A DNA stretch of 64,000 nucleotides from contig NC_003063.2 in NCBI RefSeq assembly GCF_000092025.1, positions 1,238,501 through 1,302,500 on the forward strand, read 5' to 3'. This stretch comes from Agrobacterium fabrum str. C58. Its GTDB lineage: Bacteria; Pseudomonadota; Alphaproteobacteria; Rhizobiales; Rhizobiaceae. The position numbers were made by a program, and so were the translations under genes. Numbering within the stretch: position 1 is the first letter of the stretch; each line of letters starts with the position of its first letter. Below, in pieces: positions 39,902 to 48,060 of this stretch. Below the pieces are notes generated by a model. It made no database searches, had not been told where the DNA came from, and was given only the letters and a program-made list of their open reading frames with translations.

Positions 39902-40372
39902 ATGGCAAACAGTCAAAAAACAGACGGTCTGGATCACTTCGATCTCAAGATTCTCGAGGTGCTCAGCGAAGACGGGCGCATGTCCGTATTGCAACTCTCA
40001 AAAACGGTCGGCCTTTCCAAGACGCCCTGCCAGACACGGCTGAAGCGGCTGGTGGATGAGGGCTATATTCTCGGCTTCAGGGCCATGCTCAATCCACAGA
40101 AGCTCGGCGTCGATCACATTGCCTTCGCCGAGGTCAAGCTTTCCGACACGCGGGAAAAGGCGCTGGAAGAGTTCAACACGGCGGTGCGCAAGATCAAGGA
40201 AGTGGAGGAGTGCCACATGATCGCAGGCGCCTTCGATTATCTCCTGAAGGTGCGCACCAGCGACATCCGCAAATACCGCAGGGTGCTCGGCGAAAAAATC
40301 TCGAGCCTGCCGTCGGTGGCCAATACCTCGACCTTCGTGGTCATGCAGTCCGTCAAGGAAACGGGTATTTGA
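39902..40372 (+). CDS. putR: Lrp/AsnC-family activator of putA
   Basis: A 156-residue Lrp-type protein. The N-terminal HTH (KILEVLSEDGRMSVLQLSKT then GLSKTPCQTRLKRL) is followed by the RAM ligand domain. Divergence from putA over 175 bp matches the PutR arrangement described in Agrobacterium tumefaciens, where it activates putA in response to proline. The shared gap is AT-rich near putR and is the expected binding region; I cannot define the exact sites. Confidence 0.9.
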   Translation: MANSQKTDGLDHFDLKILEVLSEDGRMSVLQLSKTVGLSKTPCQTRLKRLVDEGYILGFRAMLNPQKLGVDHIAFAEVKLSDTREKALEEFNTAVRKIKEVEECHMIAGAFDYLLKVRTSDIRKYRRVLGEKISSLPSVANTSTFVVMQSVKETGI

Positions 40373-40388
40373 AAAGCGGATATGGATA

Positions 40389-40414
40389 AACGGGCAGACG
40401 CAAGTCTGCCCGTT
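40389..40414. terminator. Hairpin between putR and ecfG
   Basis: Perfect 11-bp stem (AACGGGCAGAC) with GCAA loop in the short gap between convergent genes. The T run is poor, so efficiency is uncertain. Confidence 0.5.
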
Positions 40415-40439
40415 CATTGTCATTGCCAGTTTCGTTTTT

Positions 40440-41009
40440 TCAGCCCGCCGTGGCGGCGGCGGTGACCGCGCTCATCTGCGCATCCGGACCGAATTCGTTT
40501 TCGTTTTCGATACCCAGCAGTTCCTGCAGGCGAAGCCTCGCACGGCTCACACGGCTCTTGATCGTGCCGACCGGGCAACCGCAAATCTCGGCAGCTTCCT
40601 CATAGGCAAAACCGGAGGCGCCGATCAGCAGGATGGCTTCGCGCTGGTCGTCGGGCAATTTTGCGAGCGCGGTGCGGAAATCCTGAAGGTCGACGGAACC
40701 GTGCTGTTCCGGCGGCACGGAGAGGCGCGAGGTATAGACCCCGTCCGTATCCTGCACTTCACGGCCGGATTTACGAATCTGGCTGTAGAATTCGTTGCGC
40801 AGGATCGTCACCAGCCATGCCCGCATGTTGGTGCCGGGCTGAAAGCTGTCCTGTTTTGCCCAGGCCTTCATGATCGTGTCCTGCACGAGGTCGTCTGCAC
40901 GGTCCCTCGAACGGATAAGCGAAATCGCAAACGCGCGCAGGTTCGGCAACGCCGCCAGCATTTCCCGCTTGAAATTATATTCTGTCTGCTCCGGCTCTTT
41001 CGCCATCAT
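40440..41009 (-). CDS. ecfG: General stress response ECF sigma factor (EcfG/RpoE2 type)
   Basis: A 189-residue ECF sigma factor with region 2 (LIRSRDRADDLVQDTIMKAW) and region 4 (YEEAAEICGCPVGTIKSRVSRARLRLQ). It directs RNA polymerase to GGAAC...CGTT promoters. Its start overlaps the nepR stop by four bases (ATGA), so the two are translated together, and phyR is divergent: the standard alphaproteobacterial arrangement. At rest it is held by NepR and is freed when phosphorylated PhyR takes NepR away. Confidence 0.93.
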   Translation of the reverse strand: MMAKEPEQTEYNFKREMLAALPNLRAFAISLIRSRDRADDLVQDTIMKAWAKQDSFQPGTNMRAWLVTILRNEFYSQIRKSGREVQDTDGVYTSRLSVPPEQHGSVDLQDFRTALAKLPDDQREAILLIGASGFAYEEAAEICGCPVGTIKSRVSRARLRLQELLGIENENEFGPDAQMSAVTAAATAG

Positions 41010-41212
41010 TCCTCCGAAGCCTTCATGTTGGCCTTGCTTTCGGCTTCATCGAGTTTTTCGAGAAGATCGAGGAATTTGTCAGGGATGCCTTCTTCCTGAA
41101 CGGCATCATAGAGCTCCCTGAGCTTGCGGGAAATCACCGCCCGCCCGGAATGTGGAACCTGGGGGGGCGCCGAGTTGTCCGGCGAATCTTGGTCCGATTG
41201 AAACATGCTCAT
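41006..41212 (-). CDS. nepR: Anti-sigma factor NepR
   Basis: A 68-residue protein with the NepR core LRELYDAVQEEGIPDKFLDL near residues 32-51, flanked by short disordered ends. It binds EcfG to block it and switches to the sigma-like domain of PhyR under stress. It is the first gene of the nepR-ecfG operon, and its promoter region is shared with phyR. Confidence 0.93.
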   Translation of the reverse strand: MSMFQSDQDSPDNSAPPQVPHSGRAVISRKLRELYDAVQEEGIPDKFLDLLEKLDEAESKANMKASEE

Positions 41213-41244
41213 AACGTCCGGTATTCCTTTTGTGTCGTGGCAAG

Positions 41245-41269
41245 AATGCGCGGTTAAAAAAATAGTTCC
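41245..41269 (-). promoter_or_regulatory. EcfG-type promoter candidate for nepR-ecfG
   Basis: On the minus strand GGAAC (41269-41265) is followed by TT after 18 nt, with the core read as GCATT. It fits the relaxed pattern, resembles the promoter of the nearby small RNA, and would give autoregulation. Confidence 0.5.
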
Positions 41270-41277
41270 GGCGGTCC

Positions 41278-41303
41278 GGAACTTTTTTTGCGATACACAC
41301 GTT
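41278..41303 (+). promoter_or_regulatory. Consensus EcfG promoter for phyR
   Basis: GGAAC (41278-41282), 17 nt, CGTT (41300-41303), a full match, 46 bp upstream of the phyR start. EcfG control of phyR makes a positive loop, as known in other alphaproteobacteria. Confidence 0.85.
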
Positions 41304-41349
41304 GCTATCTTGGGTTTGCGTTGCAGACCGCATGAAAGGGGAGAATTCC

Positions 41350-42144
41350 ATGTCAGTTTCTACACGCATCGCACCGCACCTGCCATATCTTCGCAGGTTC
41401 GCGCGTGCCGTTTGCGGCTCACAATCAACGGGCGATGCCTATGTTGCGGCAACACTCGAAGCTCTGATCGCCGACATCAGCATTTTTCCGCAGACAAGCA
41501 GCGATCGCGTTTCGCTCTATCAATTGTTCGTATCGATCTTTAGTTCCGTCACGATCAATATTAAGACCGACGAAAACCTGTCCGGCTGGGAAAAACGCGC
41601 CTCCGCGAACCTCTCCGCCGTGCCGGCATTGGCCCGTCAGGCTTTCCTTTTGACGACGGTTGAAGAGTTCACGCCATCGGAAACCGCAGAGGTTCTGAGA
41701 GTGTCCGAAGATCAGGTCAGCAGACTGATCGACGAGGCGGCCTCTGAAATCGCAAGGCAGGTGGCAACCGATATCATGATCATCGAGGATGAACCTCTGA
41801 TCGCCATGGATATCGAGCAGATGGTGACCGATCTCGGCCATCGCGTCACGGGCATCGCCCGCACCCACACGGAAGCGCTCGATCTCTTCCATCGCACCCA
41901 GCCCAAGATGATACTTGCTGATATCCAGCTCGCCGACGGCAGCTCCGGTCTCGACGCGATGAAGGATATCCTGCAGATGACCACCCTCCCGGTGATCTTT
42001 ATCACGGCCTTCCCCGAGCGTCTTTTGACAGGCGAGCGACCGGAGCCGACCTTCCTCGTGACGAAGCCGTTTAATCCGGACATGGTGAAAGCGCTTATCA
42101 GCCAGGCCCTGTTTTTCAACGAAAGCTCACGCGTCGCGGCTTGA
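41350..42144 (+). CDS. phyR: Stress response regulator PhyR (sigma-like domain + receiver)
   Basis: A 264-residue protein. Residues 1-125 mimic an ECF sigma factor, and residues about 135-258 form a receiver with acidic pocket DIMIIEDEP, phospho-acceptor Asp191 in ILADIQLADG and the lysine in VTKPF. The FAT-GUY-type segment is PVIFITAFPE. The start at 41350 follows GGGGAG; the longer frame is not supported. When phosphorylated, the sigma-like domain binds NepR and frees EcfG. The two kinase genes that follow are the likely phosphodonors. Confidence 0.95.
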   Translation: MSVSTRIAPHLPYLRRFARAVCGSQSTGDAYVAATLEALIADISIFPQTSSDRVSLYQLFVSIFSSVTINIKTDENLSGWEKRASANLSAVPALARQAFLLTTVEEFTPSETAEVLRVSEDQVSRLIDEAASEIARQVATDIMIIEDEPLIAMDIEQMVTDLGHRVTGIARTHTEALDLFHRTQPKMILADIQLADGSSGLDAMKDILQMTTLPVIFITAFPERLLTGERPEPTFLVTKPFNPDMVKALISQALFFNESSRVAA

Positions 42145-42239
42145 AATTTGCCGAAACCGCAGCCTGACCGGGAACCGGTGTGGTGCCCGGGCGTTGGCGG
42201 TTATGGTCGTGGGGCTTTCCCGCGGCTTTCTGCAAGGAG

Positions 42240-43229
42240 ATGAATTTGCATCGGCTGGCATGGCATAACGCGGAGAGGGACGAAAGCGAGCTTCACGATT
42301 CGCTTGTCCTTGCCTTGCTCGATTCGGGTGAGACAGTCATGCTGCAGGACTGGAACCGCGACTATATATTCGTGGCCAATCTGCCGGATGTCTGGAAACT
42401 TCCGGCGGATTCGCACCCGACTGATGAAAATCTGTTTGGCAATGATCTCTCAGTCCGACTGGCTGAACTTAAGAGGGACATGAACACGGCAGGCAGCCGA
42501 GGGATGCTGGAAGTTAATGCCGGCAATGACCGCGTCTTCCAGTTTCAGGTCCACTCCACCTTCAACCAGTCGAACCAGGTGGTGATGAAGACCACCATCC
42601 GGGAGGTGACGGCGGAAAGGCGGCGCGAACAGCTTCTGCGCTCGCTGCTGCGCGAGGTCAGCCACCGCTCCAAGAACCTTCTGGCGATCATCCAGAGCCT
42701 TGCCGGCCAGACGGCCCGTTTCAGCCTCACCAAGGATGATTTCCTGCGCAAGTTCCGCGGCCGGCTGCATGCCCTTGCCCAGAGCCAGGATCTCATCACG
42801 GATTCGGACTGGCGCGGTGCGCGCATATTCGAGCTTCTGCGGCAGCAATTCGATCTATATGTGCCTGAGTATCCCAACCTCATCCATATTGAAGGCGAAA
42901 ACCTGCTGCTCAACCCGAATGGTGCGCTTTATATCGGGCTCGCCTTCCATGAGCTCGTCGTCAACACCGTCAGCCACAGCGGCAATCTCGCCTATCACCC
43001 GCCGATCTCTCTCCAGTGTCGCCAGGACGGTGATTTTTACATCGTCGAATGGAACGAGCCGATGATGCCATCGAAGGAACCGGCTGAGGCCAGGCGCGGC
43101 AGTTTCGGCAGCGTGGTGCTGGAAAAGGTGGTGCCTTCCGCTCTCGGTGGCGTTGCCGAATATAAGCTGACGCCGGAACGGATCGTCTATAGCCTCAAAT
43201 TCCCTTCGGGTGACGCAGCGGTCGCATGA
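42240..43229 (+). CDS. Soluble HWE-family sensor histidine kinase
   Basis: A 329-residue kinase without membrane segments. The phospho-accepting histidine is His142 in EVSHRSKNLLAIIQSLAGQT, the N-box is FHELVVNT and the W-x-E motif is VEWNEP, together marking the HWE/HisKA_2 group. The N-terminal 120 residues look like a PAS-type sensing domain. The start at 42240 follows AAGGAG. It is 95 bp after phyR in the same direction and is a prime candidate for cytoplasmic control of PhyR. The stop is followed by a hairpin whose plus-strand T run can end its transcript. Confidence 0.88.
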   Translation: MNLHRLAWHNAERDESELHDSLVLALLDSGETVMLQDWNRDYIFVANLPDVWKLPADSHPTDENLFGNDLSVRLAELKRDMNTAGSRGMLEVNAGNDRVFQFQVHSTFNQSNQVVMKTTIREVTAERRREQLLRSLLREVSHRSKNLLAIIQSLAGQTARFSLTKDDFLRKFRGRLHALAQSQDLITDSDWRGARIFELLRQQFDLYVPEYPNLIHIEGENLLLNPNGALYIGLAFHELVVNTVSHSGNLAYHPPISLQCRQDGDFYIVEWNEPMMPSKEPAEARRGSFGSVVLEKVVPSALGGVAEYKLTPERIVYSLKFPSGDAAVA

Positions 43230-43285
43230 CAACGATTGCGGAGGTGAGAGTGAGGCTGCGCGGTCGTTTCCACGCTCGAAATCAA

Positions 43286-43400
43286 CAAAAAAAGCACGGC
43301 CCATTACAGAGCCGTGCTATTTTTATGACGGGTTTTCAGGGGTGAAACCCGTTTATAGTCAGCCAAGCTTCAGGCGGGGACGGGGGAATTGCTTGGCCTG
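43286..43400 (-). ncRNA. gsrN: GsrN-like general stress small RNA (predicted)
   Basis: On the minus strand an EcfG-type promoter is followed by an RNA of about 114 nt with no reading frame. Its 5' hairpin (stem GCCAAGC/GCTTGGC, 43391-43397 with 43362-43368) has a 22-base loop rich in C (two runs, CCCCC and CCCC). A second hairpin (stem ACGGGTTT, 43328-43352) has a loop with CCCC. The 3' end is a perfect terminator (AGCACGGC stem, 43293-43318) followed by seven T. Location beside phyR/ecfG, promoter type, C-rich loops and length match Caulobacter GsrN. Ends are approximate. Confidence 0.75.
43293..43318. terminator. Bidirectional terminator of the HWE kinase gene and the small RNA
   Basis: Perfect 8-bp stem AGCACGGC/GCCGTGCT. 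The plus side continues ATTTTTA (kinase gene end), and the minus side continues with seven T (end of the small RNA). Confidence 0.85.
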
Positions 43401-43407
43401 CAGTAAA

Positions 43408-43432
43408 AATGCACACCGCCCCATTCGGTTCC
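43408..43432 (-). promoter_or_regulatory. EcfG-type promoter of the gsrN-like RNA
   Basis: On the minus strand GGAAC (43432-43428) is followed by TT after 18 nt, core GCATTT. The predicted transcript would start near 43400, at the foot of the first hairpin. The same GCATT core occurs in the nepR promoter candidate. Confidence 0.6.
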
Positions 43433-43489
43433 CACAAAATGCATTTTTTTTGACAGAGGCCAATTTTGGCTGTCCCGGGCGAAGACGGC

Positions 43490-45229
43490 TCAGTGTGTCT
43501 GCTCGGTTCGCTTGGGGATGAAATAGCGCATCGGCGCTTCCAGCGACCATTCAAAGCCGGTCTCGCGATATTCGGTGGTAACGTTTCCGCCGAAAGCGCC
43601 TTCCGCATGGCGTTTGATGACGGTGGTGCCGAAGCCCTTGCGGCTCGGCTCAGTTGCGGGCGGCCCGCCGGTCTCCGTCCAGACCAGATGGAGCATCTGC
43701 CGGCCGTCTTTTTCGAGCGCTTTCCAGCTTACGGTTATTTTTCCCGGCGGAACCGAAAGTGCGCCATATTTGATGGAGTTCGTCGTCAGCTCATGCACCA
43801 CGAGCCCGAAATTTTGCGCCGCTTCCGGAGACAGCATGAAATCGTCGCCCTCCAGCCTGAAGCGTTCCACGACCGTGCCGAAAACATCGAGATGGGTTTC
43901 GATCAGCTTGCGGATCGGCAGACCCTGCCATTGAACTTCCGCGAGAGCCCGGATCGACATCCCAAGGCCGCGCAGGCGGTGATCCACCTCCTTCTGAAAC
44001 TCCGGAATGCTTTTATTCTCCCTGCCCAGCTGTCGTATCATCGCCTGAACCAGGGTCAGAATGTTCTTGGAGCGGTGTACCAGTTCGTGCAACAGCAGCT
44101 GCAACCGCTCTTCCGACTGGCTTCTGTCGAAGGAGGCGTTGGAGAGTGCGATGGCGACCTGGTTGGCCTCCTTTATCTTGGTATCGACGGGGGCCACGAT
44201 TTCGCCTTCACCGATGCGCTCGGCCATGTGGGTCAGATCGCGGATGGAGCTGCGCAATTGCCGGCCGACGAGATAGGCGCCGCCGATGGCGATCAGCACC
44301 AGCACAAGGCTGCCGATCATCATCTGCCGCCAGGTGTCGATCAGCGCCGCCTGGCTCGCGGCAAGCGGTCCCCACATCACGGTCTTCCACTGCCAGCCTG
44401 GCAATTGCGCATAGGCGTAGAGATTGCCCTTGCCGTCGAAAAAATTGCCGCTGAAGGCTTGCATTTCCGAAAGTATGGCGGGGTTGACAAAGGGTTTGCC
44501 CACTTCCGCCTCATCCTGCGCACTGGAAACGACCACGCGGTTGGTGCCATCGATGATCGCGACCGCCCAGTGGCGCGGTAGGTTTTCCGTGGGAATGAGC
44601 CGGCTGAGATCACTGGCATTCTGCGTCAGGATCAACGCGTCTCCGGCCGATCCGAGTTCCGGATCGAGTGGCATGGTGATGTTGAATACCCATTCTTTGC
44701 TGGTGGAACCAAAAAACAGGTCCGAGACGGTGATGCGGCGGGATTCAATTGCCTTGGCGAGATTTGCTTCGGCCGGGATCTTGCCCAGCGGCTGGCCGTA
44801 GGGAACGCGCGTGTTAAGCCGCTGCTGACCATCTTTGGTGGCGAGAAGGGCATAGAGGCCCTCCCGTTTCAGGCTTTCGGCAACGCGTCCCTGAAACGCA
44901 GCGAGGTTGCCATTCTCAAGCTCGGGGAATTGCGACAGCAGATTGAGTGACGTGGCGATTTCCTGCAGGCGACGGTCGATGTTGCGGGAAACCACCCGCA
45001 CGTCCTCGATTGTTTCCCGTTGCAGGTCGTCGCGTTTTTCCGCCTCGAGGCGCAACATCAGATAACCGACGAAAAGGATAAGCGGCAGCGTAATGACGGT
45101 CGCCATCACCACCAGATAGGTGCCGATGGAGGCCGTCGGGAAAAAATTGGCGCTGCGCCGACGCAAAGCCGAAATCGTTTCTTTCAGTCTGTTGCCGGGT
45201 CGAGGCATATAAAAAACTCCGGCAGTCAT
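43490..45229 (-). CDS. Membrane-bound HWE-family sensor histidine kinase (PhyK-like)
   Basis: A 579-residue kinase. Membrane helices lie near residues 36-60 and 300-322 and enclose a periplasmic sensor of about 240 residues (dCACHE-like). A HAMP segment follows (IRDLTHMAERIGEGEIVAPV), then the kinase core: His385 in ELVHRSKNILTLVQAM, N-box HELTTNSIKYGAL and W-x-E in LVWTET. It belongs to the HWE/HisKA_2 group that feeds PhyR in alphaproteobacteria. Location two genes from phyR supports a PhyK-like role, sensing a periplasmic signal. The gsrN-like RNA lies immediately downstream on the same strand. Confidence 0.88.
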   Translation of the reverse strand: MTAGVFYMPRPGNRLKETISALRRRSANFFPTASIGTYLVVMATVITLPLILFVGYLMLRLEAEKRDDLQRETIEDVRVVSRNIDRRLQEIATSLNLLSQFPELENGNLAAFQGRVAESLKREGLYALLATKDGQQRLNTRVPYGQPLGKIPAEANLAKAIESRRITVSDLFFGSTSKEWVFNITMPLDPELGSAGDALILTQNASDLSRLIPTENLPRHWAVAIIDGTNRVVVSSAQDEAEVGKPFVNPAILSEMQAFSGNFFDGKGNLYAYAQLPGWQWKTVMWGPLAASQAALIDTWRQMMIGSLVLVLIAIGGAYLVGRQLRSSIRDLTHMAERIGEGEIVAPVDTKIKEANQVAIALSNASFDRSQSEERLQLLLHELVHRSKNILTLVQAMIRQLGRENKSIPEFQKEVDHRLRGLGMSIRALAEVQWQGLPIRKLIETHLDVFGTVVERFRLEGDDFMLSPEAAQNFGLVVHELTTNSIKYGALSVPPGKITVSWKALEKDGRQMLHLVWTETGGPPATEPSRKGFGTTVIKRHAEGAFGGNVTTEYRETGFEWSLEAPMRYFIPKRTEQTH

Positions 45230-45341
45230 GGCATTGTTACGGCAGGAATAATAGCGCGCTGTCGTCCGTTAGCAATGGCTGATTTTTTACCTTTGGTTGC
45301 TGCGGTTCACGGTATCTCCCAAAGCCGTGATCGAAAAAATC

Positions 45342-45367
45342 GGAACTATTTCCACAACCGTGCCGTT
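45342..45367 (+). promoter_or_regulatory. Consensus EcfG promoter for the PRC-barrel gene
   Basis: GGAAC (45342-45346), 17 nt, CGTT (45364-45367), a full match 76 bp ahead of the start at 45444. Confidence 0.8.
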
Positions 45368-45443
45368 TGCCAATCGAACCGGTCGAGGAGCGGGAGAAAT
45401 ATCACCGCCGGCCAGTTGAGAACGATGAAAGGAAGGTACGAAA

Positions 45444-46019
45444 ATGACTAGGAAACTCGCGACTATCTTTACCGCCGCACTGATGGGTACGACTGCTTTC
45501 GCGCCGCTCGCCATCGCTCAGGGAACCACACAGCCTGCACCGGCAAACCCGAGCGCGCAGGCCGAGCCGGCAAGCCCTTCTGCAACGCCGATGACACCGG
45601 CGGCCCCGACGGCAGCCGATAGCGCCGCGGCGACAACTGGTGGCGCTTACATCACCGAGCAGGGTGAAAATCAGGTCAGCGCCAATGATTACATCGGTAA
45701 ATCCGTCTATACCGGCGCTGACGAGAGCATCGGTAATGTCACCAACCTCATCATGGAACAGGACGGTGGTCTTGTCGCAGCCGTGATTGGTGTCGGCGGC
45801 TTCCTCGGCATCGGTGCCAAGGATGTGGCCGTTCCTATGGACAAGGTTACAATGACGCGTAACACGCAGGACGGCACTATCCGCCTGACCACGACTGAAA
45901 CGGCGGAAACGCTGAAGGCCGCGCCGGAATTCAAGACGCTGGAACAGAAGGCCAGCGAAAAGAATGCGGCAGTGCCGGCCGCCCCTGACAGCACGACCAC
46001 ATCGGCAACCAAGCCTTAA
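45444..46019 (+). CDS. Exported PRC-barrel domain protein
   Basis: A 191-residue protein with a signal peptide (MTRKLATIFTAALMGTTAFA, cleaved near AIAQG), a Pro/Ala-rich linker, and a PRC-barrel domain at about residues 75-150 (NDYIGKSVYTGADESIGNVT; GVGGFLGIGAKDVAVPMDKV). The tail is again low complexity. PRC-barrel proteins of this type are frequent stress-induced envelope proteins in rhizobia; no enzymatic role is known. The EcfG promoter upstream and the location beside the stress kinases fit that. A strong terminator follows. Confidence 0.88.
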   Translation: MTRKLATIFTAALMGTTAFAPLAIAQGTTQPAPANPSAQAEPASPSATPMTPAAPTAADSAAATTGGAYITEQGENQVSANDYIGKSVYTGADESIGNVTNLIMEQDGGLVAAVIGVGGFLGIGAKDVAVPMDKVTMTRNTQDGTIRLTTTETAETLKAAPEFKTLEQKASEKNAAVPAAPDSTTTSATKP

Positions 46020-46074
46020 TTCCCATACCTGGGAGGCAGGAGCGGGACAGGCGATTATCAGTCGTCCCGCGAAG

Positions 46075-46102
46075 GCACCGGCCATTTGGCCGGTGCTTTT
46101 TT
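46075..46102 (+). terminator. Rho-independent terminator after the PRC-barrel gene
   Basis: Perfect 10-bp stem (GCACCGGCCA/TGGCCGGTGC) with two-base loop followed by TTTTTT on the plus strand. Confidence 0.85.
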
Positions 46103-46120
46103 GTGTTGGCTTAAGCTTGT

Positions 46121-47107
46121 TCAGTCCCCGGCATTACGGGAGGAATGCCACGCCCAGGCAGATTTTATGATATCCGATAGAGAATAACGCGGTTCCCAGC
46201 CGAGAACCTCTCTGGCCTTGTCGTTATTGGCAACGAGGGTGGTGGAGTCGCCATCGCGCCGTCCGGTATATTCCACGGGGAAGGGGCGGCCGGAGACTTC
46301 CGAAATTGCCGCTAGCAGCTCCTTTACCGTGGTGCCGGTGCCGGTGCCGAGGTTGAGTTCGACAGTCTCGCCGCCATCCAGCAGGTAGTCCACTGCCCGC
46401 ACATGCGCATCGGCAAGATCGAGAATGTGGATATAGTCGCGCACGCAGGTGCCGTCGCGTGTGTCGTAATCCGTGCCGAACACCTTGAAGCCCTGGCGCC
46501 GTCCGAGTGCAGCTTCGATGGCAAGCGGGATCGCGTGGGTTTCCGGCTTGTGCCATTCGCCGATGCGGCCTTCGAAATCTGCGCCCGCAGCGTTGAAATA
46601 ACGCAGCATCACCGAGCGCAGCCCCTCATAGGTGCTGTAATCCTTCAGCGCCTGCTCCACCACCCATTTGGTGCGGCCATAGGGATTGATCGGCGCCTGC
46701 CGGTGTGTCTCGTCGATCGGCACCTGTTCCGGCAATCCGTAGGTCGCGCAAGTGGAGGAGAAAACGAACGACGTGACACCGGCATCGATGGCGGCGGAAA
46801 GCAGGTTGAGCGAGCCGATGACGTTATTGTCGTAAAAAGCGACCGGTTGCTTGACAGATTCGCCGACTTCGATAAGCGCGGCGAAGTGAAGGACGGCTTC
46901 CGGTCGGTGCTTGGCGAAGACCTCGTCCAGCCGCGCCCGGTCGCGAATATCGCCCTGTTCGAAAGGCCCCCAGCGGACAAATTCCTCATGCCCGTTGGAG
47001 AGATTGTCGAAAACAACCGGTTCATATCCTCGCTCAGACAGGAGAAGGCAGGTGTGAGAACCGATATAGCCGGCACCGCCGACGACAAGGACTTTCTTCT
47101 TCATCAA
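46121..47107 (-). CDS. galE: UDP-glucose 4-epimerase
   Basis: A 328-residue extended SDR. NAD motif GGAGYIGSHTCLL, catalytic Ser/Thr region SSTCATYG and YxxxK in YGRTKWVVEQ; the C-terminal RRDGDSTTLVANNDKAREVL is typical of GalE. It interconverts UDP-glucose and UDP-galactose for exopolysaccharide and LPS (the rhizobial version is also called exoB). The first two codons are both ATG, so the start is 47107 or 47104. No polysaccharide genes adjoin it here. Confidence 0.92.
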   Translation of the reverse strand: MMKKKVLVVGGAGYIGSHTCLLLSERGYEPVVFDNLSNGHEEFVRWGPFEQGDIRDRARLDEVFAKHRPEAVLHFAALIEVGESVKQPVAFYDNNVIGSLNLLSAAIDAGVTSFVFSSTCATYGLPEQVPIDETHRQAPINPYGRTKWVVEQALKDYSTYEGLRSVMLRYFNAAGADFEGRIGEWHKPETHAIPLAIEAALGRRQGFKVFGTDYDTRDGTCVRDYIHILDLADAHVRAVDYLLDGGETVELNLGTGTGTTVKELLAAISEVSGRPFPVEYTGRRDGDSTTLVANNDKAREVLGWEPRYSLSDIIKSAWAWHSSRNAGD

Positions 47108-47215
47108 TGGCCTTTCAGAAAATTACGGACGCGCCGAGACTGTATGTCACTTTGTTCAAATGAGGGCGGCGTGGCGCGGGATGCCATCAGCCAATCTATC
47201 CTTCGCCGGTAACAT

Positions 47216-47253
47216 AAAAAAAACCGCGCATCCATGGCCTGGATGCGCGGTTT
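47216..47253 (-). terminator. Rho-independent terminator of the DUF883/holin-like pair
   Basis: Perfect 14-bp stem (AAACCGCGCATCCA) with TGGCC loop followed by eight T on the minus strand, just past the stop at 47277. Confidence 0.9.
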
Positions 47254-47276
47254 GCCTTTTGCGTGCCGCCAAGAAA

Positions 47277-47714
47277 TTACTTGGTCTTTTTGGTACCGGC
47301 CCTCGTGGCCAGAAAACCGGCAGCGACAGCCACGGCGAGCGTCGCATAGGGACGCGCCTGAATGGCCAGCGTCAGCAGCGATTGCAGGGCGAGGGGGGCT
47401 GCCGCAAGCGGTGCCGCCGTCAAAGGCGCCAAGGCGGGCCTTGCAGCATATACTCTTGGCCGTTTGACGATGGTGAGTGCCACCAACATGATGACGCCGA
47501 GTAGGAAGGCAGCGCCGGCAACGACGAGTGCTGCAGGGCCTGCGCCGACATGTTTGGCGAGATAGATCGACCCTGCCACCACCGCGGCAATGAAGGCGAT
47601 CAGGAAGAAGATCGCGGTCAGAGCCGACAGGATTATCGTCGTGCGCAACCGTCGCGTAACGACGCGCCCTTCACGCTGGGTCTCCCCCAGATAGACCAGC
47701 AATGCTTCAAGCAT
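47277..47714 (-). CDS. Phage_holin_3_6 (DUF1469, YqjE-like) membrane protein
   Basis: A 145-residue protein with two central membrane helices (LSALTAIFFLIAFIAAVVAG and AALVVAGAAFLLGVIMLVAL) and a weaker third near the C-terminus. The family name holin is historical; YqjE-like proteins are cellular, occur with DUF883 (YqjD-like) proteins and are stress induced in enterobacteria. It is four bases downstream of the DUF883 gene, so it shares its EcfG promoter. Nothing around it is phage-like. Confidence 0.85.
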   Translation of the reverse strand: MLEALLVYLGETQREGRVVTRRLRTTIILSALTAIFFLIAFIAAVVAGSIYLAKHVGAGPAALVVAGAAFLLGVIMLVALTIVKRPRVYAARPALAPLTAAPLAAAPLALQSLLTLAIQARPYATLAVAVAAGFLATRAGTKKTK

Positions 47715-47718
47715 GGGC

Positions 47719-48060
47719 TTATCGGCGGGTCAGGAGAGCAAGAACGAAACCGACGCCGATCGCAATACCGAGCGACTGAAGCGGGTTCTTCTGAACCTGG
47801 TCCGTCAGATTGTCGTTGAGCGTGGAGATTTCGTTGCGGACCGTGTCGGCCATGTCGCTCGACGCCGAGATCGCGTCATCGGCAACGCGGGCAGCCTGTG
47901 CCTTCAACTCGTGCGACGCTCCGACGCCGAGAGCCTTCACGCTCTCGGCAAGATTTGCCAGATCTTCGCGAAGCTGGGCGAGCTGTGCCGCCACATCGGC
48001 TGCATCACCGTTTTCGAGGGATTGCTGGATCTTGTCGTTGACGTTGCGCACGCTTGCCAT
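47719..48060 (-). CDS. DUF883 (YqjD/ElaB-like) protein
   Basis: A 113-residue protein: a long amphipathic coiled helix (about residues 10-80, VAAQLAQLREDLANLAESVK) followed by a single C-terminal membrane helix (SLGIAIGVGFVLALLTRR), the usual tail-anchored design. The start at 48060 follows GGAAGGACT; the longer frame runs into the promoter. In E. coli relatives anchor ribosomes to the inner membrane in stationary phase; that function is not shown here. First gene of a two-gene stress operon. Confidence 0.88.
   Translation of the reverse strand: MASVRNVNDKIQQSLENGDAADVAAQLAQLREDLANLAESVKALGVGASHELKAQAARVADDAISASSDMADTVRNEISTLNDNLTDQVQKNPLQSLGIAIGVGFVLALLTRR

Follow-up and report, generated by a model that had tools for sequence, protein, structure and literature searches.

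A conserved small RNA gene with two C-rich loops beside the general stress switch of Agrobacterium fabrum

Beside the genes of the general stress response (GSR) switch of Agrobacterium fabrum str. C58 lies a gap between two convergent HWE kinase genes. It raises the question of whether its minus strand carries a small RNA gene, how such an RNA would act and to which known RNAs it is related. We analysed this gap within a window of 64,000 nucleotides (contig NC_003063.2, positions 1,238,501 to 1,302,500), and all window positions given here are counted from its first letter. The switch is composed of ecfG, the general stress sigma factor and presumed regulator of the RNA (40440..41009, minus strand; Pfam: Sigma70_r2 and r4_2), the anti-sigma factor gene nepR (41006..41212, minus strand; Pfam: NepR) and phyR (41350..42144, plus strand; Pfam: PhyR_sigma2 and Response_reg). 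HWE kinase 1 (42240..43229, plus strand), assigned by Pfam HWE_HK and by synteny, takes the position of tcrY in R. etli and is the conserved convergent neighbour of the RNA gene. HWE kinase 2 (43490..45229, minus strand; Pfam match) lies outside the RNA unit and adjoins the RNA in most Agrobacterium-group loci; it also has a Cache match under the Cache family cut-off. A preliminary description of this DNA had placed an RNA beside the general stress switch, and the Pfam assignments of EcfG, NepR, PhyR and the two HWE kinases bear this out. EcfG-like boxes were also seen elsewhere around these genes. One, of the form GGAAC-N16-CGTT, is positioned between phyR and HWE kinase 1 (42171-42195) and another, at 45342-45367, precedes a PRC-barrel gene (45444-46019, plus strand) by about 77 bases; this gene is perhaps another member of the stress regulon.

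The RNA gene is positioned at 43287..43402 on the minus strand (near 1,281,787-1,281,902 of the contig) and is drawn from sequence, fold and conservation, with a length of about 115 nt and a start predicted from the promoter. Its fold has a z of -6.17, and 0 of 200 shuffles were as good. Hairpin 1 (GCCAAGC...GCUUGGC, 43362..43397) presents the C-rich loop 1, CCCCCGUCCCC (43376..43386), which is proposed as seed 1. Hairpin 2 (ACGGGUUU...AAACCCGU, 43328..43352), which is backed by compensatory changes as well as by the fold, has the loop CACCCC; the C-rich loop 2, CCCC within CACCCCUGA (43339..43342), is proposed as seed 2. The two hairpins with C runs in their loops are thus present as first described. 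In the window copy the two runs of loop 1 are predicted to be unpaired with values of 0.64 and 0.80 and the CCCC of loop 2 with 1.0. The intrinsic terminator (43287..43318) combines a stem at 43318-43293 with seven T at 43293-43287. It had been called perfect; the seven T are there, but one of the 10 pairs of the stem is G-U. The terminator hairpin is possibly shared, on the plus strand, with the convergent kinase gene. A search of 40000-48000 against Rfam gave nothing above the gathering score, and the matches over the RNA region were at chance level.

The promoter has an EcfG-type -35 element GGAAC (43428..43432, minus strand), identified by sequence and conservation, and a -10 element CATT (43408..43411, minus strand), identified by sequence, which deviates from the consensus CGTT, so that the box has the form GGAAC-N16-CATT. 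Upstream of it an UP-element-like A/T tract was found in the sequence (43444..43451, minus strand), and across 65 named loci the A/T fraction at -19 to -11 from GGAAC is 0.75-0.97; the tract may act as an UP element. A single EcfG-type box is weak evidence on its own. The window holds 16 loose EcfG-type matches against 8.9 expected, a number reached by 3 of 100 shuffles. The promoter is nevertheless credible because the nepR-ecfG promoter of the window (41269-41245, minus strand) is likewise GGAAC-N16-CATT, because its position is kept in the genus, with a nearly constant distance from GGAAC to the loop (within 2 bases in all 30 genus loci aligned), and because the spacing is 16 throughout. 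Every one of the 65 named loci with a box has GGAAC-N16-xRTT, with the -10 element ending in GTT in 63 and being CATT in two, under a box-finding rule that allowed spacings of 15-17 and did not impose 16. The EcfG-type box on the minus strand, an earlier claim, is therefore seen in the window and kept across relatives.

Conservation settles what the box alone leaves weak, and the RNA gene is real. Taking blastn and a box-loop pattern together, we detected the RNA in all 39 genomes of the genus. blastn matches it in 38 of them, the own genome included, and the genome that it missed (G024) has the RNA at the same place beside phyR. The pattern, an EcfG box with CCCCGTCCCC, was found in 38 of the 39 genomes with 41 matches, compared to 15 for the reversed pattern in these genomes, and the genome missed here (G002) has a blastn match. 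CCCCGUCCCC stands under an EcfG-type box in 38 of the 39 genomes. The genus alignment (A1) comprises 26 of 30 loci, with four close duplicates left out; hairpin 1 of L022 is misaligned in it. Neither the cores of the two C-rich loops nor CCCCUGAA of loop 2 (26/26) change across the 26 sequences, and the length of loop 1 varies by one base among the genus loci. Covariation within the genus is thin: two-sided compensatory changes occur at 2 of the 10 pairs of hairpin 2 and at 4 of the 30 pairs of the whole structure (1/500 shuffles). Because the pairs of hairpin 1 hardly vary within the genus, the covariation evidence for this hairpin comes from another lineage.

A wider scan, for phyR, yielded 80 named loci; in 78 of them the kinase comes after phyR. 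One early scan took 23 of the 80 loci, and the later scans took all loci with kinase 1 beside phyR. Of the boxes lying over 150 bases from the kinase end, the one closest to the kinase was taken, and each transcript was cut at its first T run, which lets some stretches extend beyond the terminator. The RNA is found at 68 of the 78 loci with an HWE kinase after phyR, in 65 on the strand opposite the kinase and with the box, and in three inverted. All 13 Agrobacterium-group loci (L048-L060) carry it after phyR and the HWE kinase. No RNA copy was found at the other 10 of the 78 loci, a group that includes Ciceribacter, where nepR-ecfG lies elsewhere; the scan over the full length of these 10 loci gave boxed C-rich hairpin candidates in two, at 6664 in L091 and at 11117 in L099. 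L066 and L111, which have no kinase 1 beside phyR, contain no boxed C-rich hairpin, and L066 has two weak matches to the Agrobacterium model described below.

The RNAs fall into three sequence types: Agrobacterium (13 loci), Neorhizobium/Pseudorhizobium (33 loci) and Rhizobium tropici/mesosinicum (19 loci). The Neorhizobium/Pseudorhizobium type has CCCCCCGUCCCCCGCCC in loop 1 and AUCCCCCUC in loop 2; the Rhizobium type has an inner hairpin within hairpin 1, and GGUCCCCUCCC in loop 2. Between the types the stem sequences are replaced and the loops remain C-rich. The loop of hairpin 1 has a run of at least four C in 58 of the 65 named loci, with CCC in seven of the Rhizobium group, and the loop of hairpin 2 has such a run in 65 of 65, predicted to be unpaired (at least 0.8) in 63. 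Hairpin 2 is present in the best fold of 61 stretches out of 65 and broken in that of the other four.

The Neorhizobium-type alignment (A2, 27 of the 33 loci) carries most of the evidence for the stems, with two-sided compensatory changes at 13 of 25 pairs. In this alignment 99.3% of the cells pair, compared to 90.3% in shuffles, and 0 of 500 shuffles reach the observed value. Hairpin 2 gives no covariation there, since it is invariant in this type. The count of further pair types was not above shuffles in either the Neorhizobium-type or the genus alignment; the Rhizobium-type alignment (A3, 18 of 19 loci) was made without pair counts. The preliminary description had named compensatory changes in the stems and fixed C runs across the gap between phyR and the kinase as a check on the RNA, and both are found: stem pairs change on both sides in the Neorhizobium-type and genus alignments, and C-rich loops are kept in most relatives.

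Covariance models link the types. The Agrobacterium-only model, searched over 67 other loci (1.1 Mb) and leaving out the 13 Agrobacterium-group loci because it was built from that genus, gave 13 matches up to an E-value of 5, the best at 2.9e-5, and 10 of the 13 lie exactly at these RNAs, including the inverted copy of L081. The Neorhizobium-type model was searched over 52 sources, from which its own 27 rows and six more loci of that type were left out. It gave 41 matches, of which 32 lie at the RNAs or their paralogs, three on the reverse strand of inverted copies and six elsewhere; the window RNA scored an E-value of 0.59. The RNA thus appears to be homologous across lineages, with modest cross-lineage model scores. 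Whole-genome covariance searches match few genomes of the family, 13 of 199 in one search and 6 of 199 in another (C58 not among them), under filters that lose weak matches and make them insensitive outside the model's own lineage. Several of the weak whole-genome matches are probably terminators. Weak matches of the two RNA models are also seen repeatedly where ecfG stops, at its 3' end or immediately beyond it, on the minus strand in L086 (7025-7126), L106 (6926-7027), L113 (6929-7023) and L118 (6907-7037), and these are probably the ecfG terminator.

Besides the copies next to phyR, there are EcfG-boxed paralogs away from it, in L158 (4806-4893, minus strand), L178 (5532-5622, minus strand) and L179 (4686-4773, plus strand); G022 has one and G023 two. 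The paralogs in these two genomes have retained the terminator and hairpin 1, whose loop is still CCCCGUCCCC, but have no hairpin 2. The box-loop pattern found no paralog in the own genome. Broader motif scans were set aside. The exact motif CCCCGTCCCCGCCTG with one mismatch allowed is present in 105 of 199 family genomes and is too common to inform; the box-loop pattern across the family matched 21 of 297 genomes, with true copies and chance matches mixed; and the class-wide scan for the box-loop motif matched 21 of 385 genomes, which is comparable to the reversed control and chance-like. An EcfG-type box with a run like CAACTGCCGACACCCCGTCCCC was seen in four genomes of one other genus, g14 (G051 C1:933291, G153 C1:1353195, G222 C2:488567 and G279 C34:55742), and this is perhaps a further C-rich stress RNA.

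We consider it likely that the gene encodes a trans-acting small RNA that belongs to the general stress regulon and corresponds to ReC64 of R. etli. In stressed cells PhyR would release EcfG from NepR, EcfG would transcribe the RNA from GGAAC-N16-CATT, and the intrinsic terminator would end the transcript. The two C-rich loops, each on its own hairpin, would then most likely base-pair with G-rich mRNA segments, such as ribosome sites or leaders, probably with the assistance of Hfq. Such pairing would change translation during stress, and both the targets and the direction of regulation are suggested here by analogy: action by loop pairing with G-rich mRNA sites, as in GsrN, is what we infer.

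The katG leader, a proven GsrN target, was rejected as a target with a G4 tract, since 28 of 30 leaders lack G4. In these 30 genus loci, taken from 38 genomes with a katG match and with start codons chosen by rule, a G4 run was found within 250 nt upstream of the start in two and in none for the own genome; shorter seeds are possible. The exact 10-nt complement of loop 1 occurs at three genome sites besides the RNA gene itself, none of them at a clear leader. The loop-1 complement GGGGACGGGG occurs four times in the own genome, compared to 34 times for the reversed control. Most of 121 Rhizobiaceae genomes likewise contain fewer copies of GGGGACGGGG than of its reversed form, and the difference is often several-fold. 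Off-target avoidance was rejected as the cause of this rarity, as the imbalance is also present in genera without a box-loop match, and the rarity is compositional because most of the 121 family genomes show it.

Could the RNA instead work mainly as feedback within the switch, with loop 2 pairing with the phyR ribosome site (AAAGGGGAG in the window) and tuning PhyR? This site (41335-41343) is G-rich, AGGGGAG or near it in Agrobacterium and Neorhizobium-type loci, and CGGGAG-like in most loci of the Rhizobium type. By simple duplex energies that leave out accessibility, and with gene starts set by rule, 11 of 207 (Agrobacterium group) and 35 of 445 (Neorhizobium type) of the background genes match or beat the duplex of loop 2 with phyR, but 5 of 53 window genes are as good, as are 95 of 280 background genes in the Rhizobium group. 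Any C-rich loop pairs with G-rich ribosome sites. Furthermore, the Rhizobium-group RNA pairs better with the phyR of the Neorhizobium type than with its own, so there is no coevolution of loop 2 and phyR in this group, and for Caulobacter no feedback on sigma-T is reported (Tien 2018, PMC5869019). Feedback on phyR as the main job is thus improbable, and we keep the pairing as a weak lead. It also forms part of a broader picture that we hold to be rather unlikely, namely a two-handed regulator in which the two loops read two sets of G-rich mRNAs, loop 2 acts on the phyR ribosome site as feedback, and the paralogs without hairpin 2 have kept the other hand. Both C-rich loops are conserved; the idea of two separate target sites, raised in the preliminary description, found no support here.

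The RNA could also act in cis, as an antisense RNA or a shared terminator that controls the mRNA of the convergent HWE kinase 1. The two genes are convergent, the terminator hairpin can be read on both strands and 65 of the 68 RNA copies lie opposite the kinase. Yet the RNA unit is inverted onto the kinase's own strand at three Neorhizobium-type loci (plus-strand boxes; L062 at 10207, L071 at 6573 and L081 at 10207), all of which keep the box, both C-rich loops and the stems. A related RNA with two C-rich loops, one of the whole-genome covariance matches, immediately follows phyR in G177, where no kinase separates the two (L239, 1501-1624; no GGAAC was found in the 60 bases before it). The overlap with the kinase transcript would be limited to the last hairpin, and loops that are kept while stems change are unlike what selection for antisense complementarity would give. 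A role in cis is therefore very unlikely. The preliminary description had placed the RNA opposite the transcript of the HWE kinase, which is correct for the window but is no essential trait, because three relatives carry the gene inverted.

That the RNA is a processed 3' UTR of HWE kinase 2, with the EcfG box arising by chance, is a far-fetched reading. Kinase 2 and the RNA are on the same strand, the box begins 58 bases past the kinase 2 stop and there is no clear terminator between them; however, L058 and the loci of the Neorhizobium and Rhizobium types, where the box and the RNA persist, have no close homolog of kinase 2 next to the RNA, and the box spacing of 16 in 65 of 65 loci also speaks against chance. 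As three loci are inverted and kinase 2 is often absent, the RNA is an independent unit, neither an antisense RNA of the kinase nor a 3' UTR.

It is hardly credible that the transcript encodes a small protein: the window copy does have a TTG reading frame of 20 codons, whose start is kept because it lies within the conserved stem of hairpin 1, but across the 13 Agrobacterium-group loci (L048-L060) this frame is 12, 13, 14 or 21 codons long, reaches the transcript end with no stop codon in four or is absent (L052), and the one-base length changes in loop 1 and the compensatory changes in the stems also make a peptide product unlikely. The first statement that the stretch has no reading frame is therefore not literally true, but it holds in substance, and the RNA gene is conserved and non-coding.

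RNAs of this kind are already known, as ReC64 was published in 2010 and 2013. New are the two C-rich loops as a family feature, the turnover of the stems, the inversion and the paralogs without hairpin 2. Synteny, promoter and compensatory change connect the Agrobacterium copy with ReC64 and with a stretch of the Rhizobiaceae, and the alignment made here could found an Rfam family, as none matches at present. To the general idea of an sRNA that acts in the general stress response through a C-rich loop, the analysis adds a two-loop design that can be tested in the common laboratory strain C58, and it bears on a possible Caulobacter-like post-transcriptional arm in the GSR of plant-associated alphaproteobacteria.

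The closest known system is ReC64 of R. etli CFN42, which is reported to be intergenic, downstream of phyR-tcrY and to have an EcfG1 motif (Jans 2013, PMC3892343). Its start was mapped by 5' RACE, its expression is abolished in ecfG1 mutants, and EcfG1 and EcfG2 activate it directly in E. coli, according to the same report. On Northern blots it was seen in both exponential and stationary phase, together with an additional larger band (Vercruysse 2010, PMC2881028). A further study reports it to be raised under salt shock and predicts SigA and RpoH promoters for it, not EcfG (PMC4167512). The signal in exponential phase and these promoter predictions count against our main reading, as does the -10 element CATT of the window copy. 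The position after phyR and the kinase tcrY and the promoter of EcfG consensus are shared with the Agrobacterium RNA, and by synteny the two are the same gene. Compared through relatives of the Rhizobium group, the two differ in that the Rhizobium-group RNAs have an inner hairpin in hairpin 1 and CCCCUCCC instead of CACCCC in loop 2. The reported size of ReC64 is 88 nt plus the larger band. Its relatives read to a full length of about 120 nt, and a product of 88 nt would accommodate only hairpins 1 and 2.

Small RNAs of other bacteria that carry C-rich motifs use their C-rich loops as seeds. Their pairing with G-rich mRNA sites is noted in Tien 2018 (PMC5869019), and they differ from the present RNA in lineage, promoter and locus, which are unrelated. 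For strain C58 itself (A. tumefaciens C58 in that study), Table 4 and the Northern-validated RNAs of the main text of Lee 2013 (PMC3738593) contain no ncRNA at this locus; the RNA may already be detected in the full tables of that survey or in Wilms 2012. By title or start of abstract, none of the GsrN papers within our coverage, which has most subscription journals outside it, is about Agrobacterium.

With GsrN of C. crescentus, as described in Tien 2018 (PMC5869019), the RNA shares an EcfG-class promoter, a length of about 100 nt, an exposed C-rich 5' loop, an intrinsic terminator and the proximity to GSR genes; the targets of GsrN are G-rich. GsrN is described there with a C-rich loop only at the 5' side and a second exposed region on the 3' side; stabilisation by Hfq and cleavage to a stable 5' isoform are further GsrN traits. 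The preliminary description had called the RNA a GsrN-like Agrobacterium member: what we find is indeed small and non-coding, lies next to the GSR switch and has an EcfG-type promoter and a C-rich 5' loop, while the katG-leader mechanism of Caulobacter found no support, given the scarcity of G4 in the leaders. Common descent with GsrN of Caulobacter is conjectural. The exposed C-rich 5' loop, a GsrN trait, is present in the window RNA. The same paper files copies from R. etli, S. meliloti, B. abortus and 'Agrobacterium radiobacter' as GsrN homologs, reports that these usually lie beside GSR genes and has the BLASTn matches of GsrN end at the Caulobacteraceae (PMC5869019). Our comparison supports the RNA as the Agrobacterium member of the GsrN-like group proposed for the Rhizobiaceae and as the syntenic counterpart of R. 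etli ReC64. What Tien and colleagues list as 'A. radiobacter' we take to be K84, a Rhizobium-group strain. The predicted Rhizobiaceae homologs and the RNA of the window have in common the EcfG box, the place near the GSR locus and the exposed C-rich 5' loop (PMC5869019, legend of Fig. 9), but the predictions are drawn with one exposed loop and a small flanking hairpin, whereas the Agrobacterium RNA has two C-rich loops on separate hairpins.
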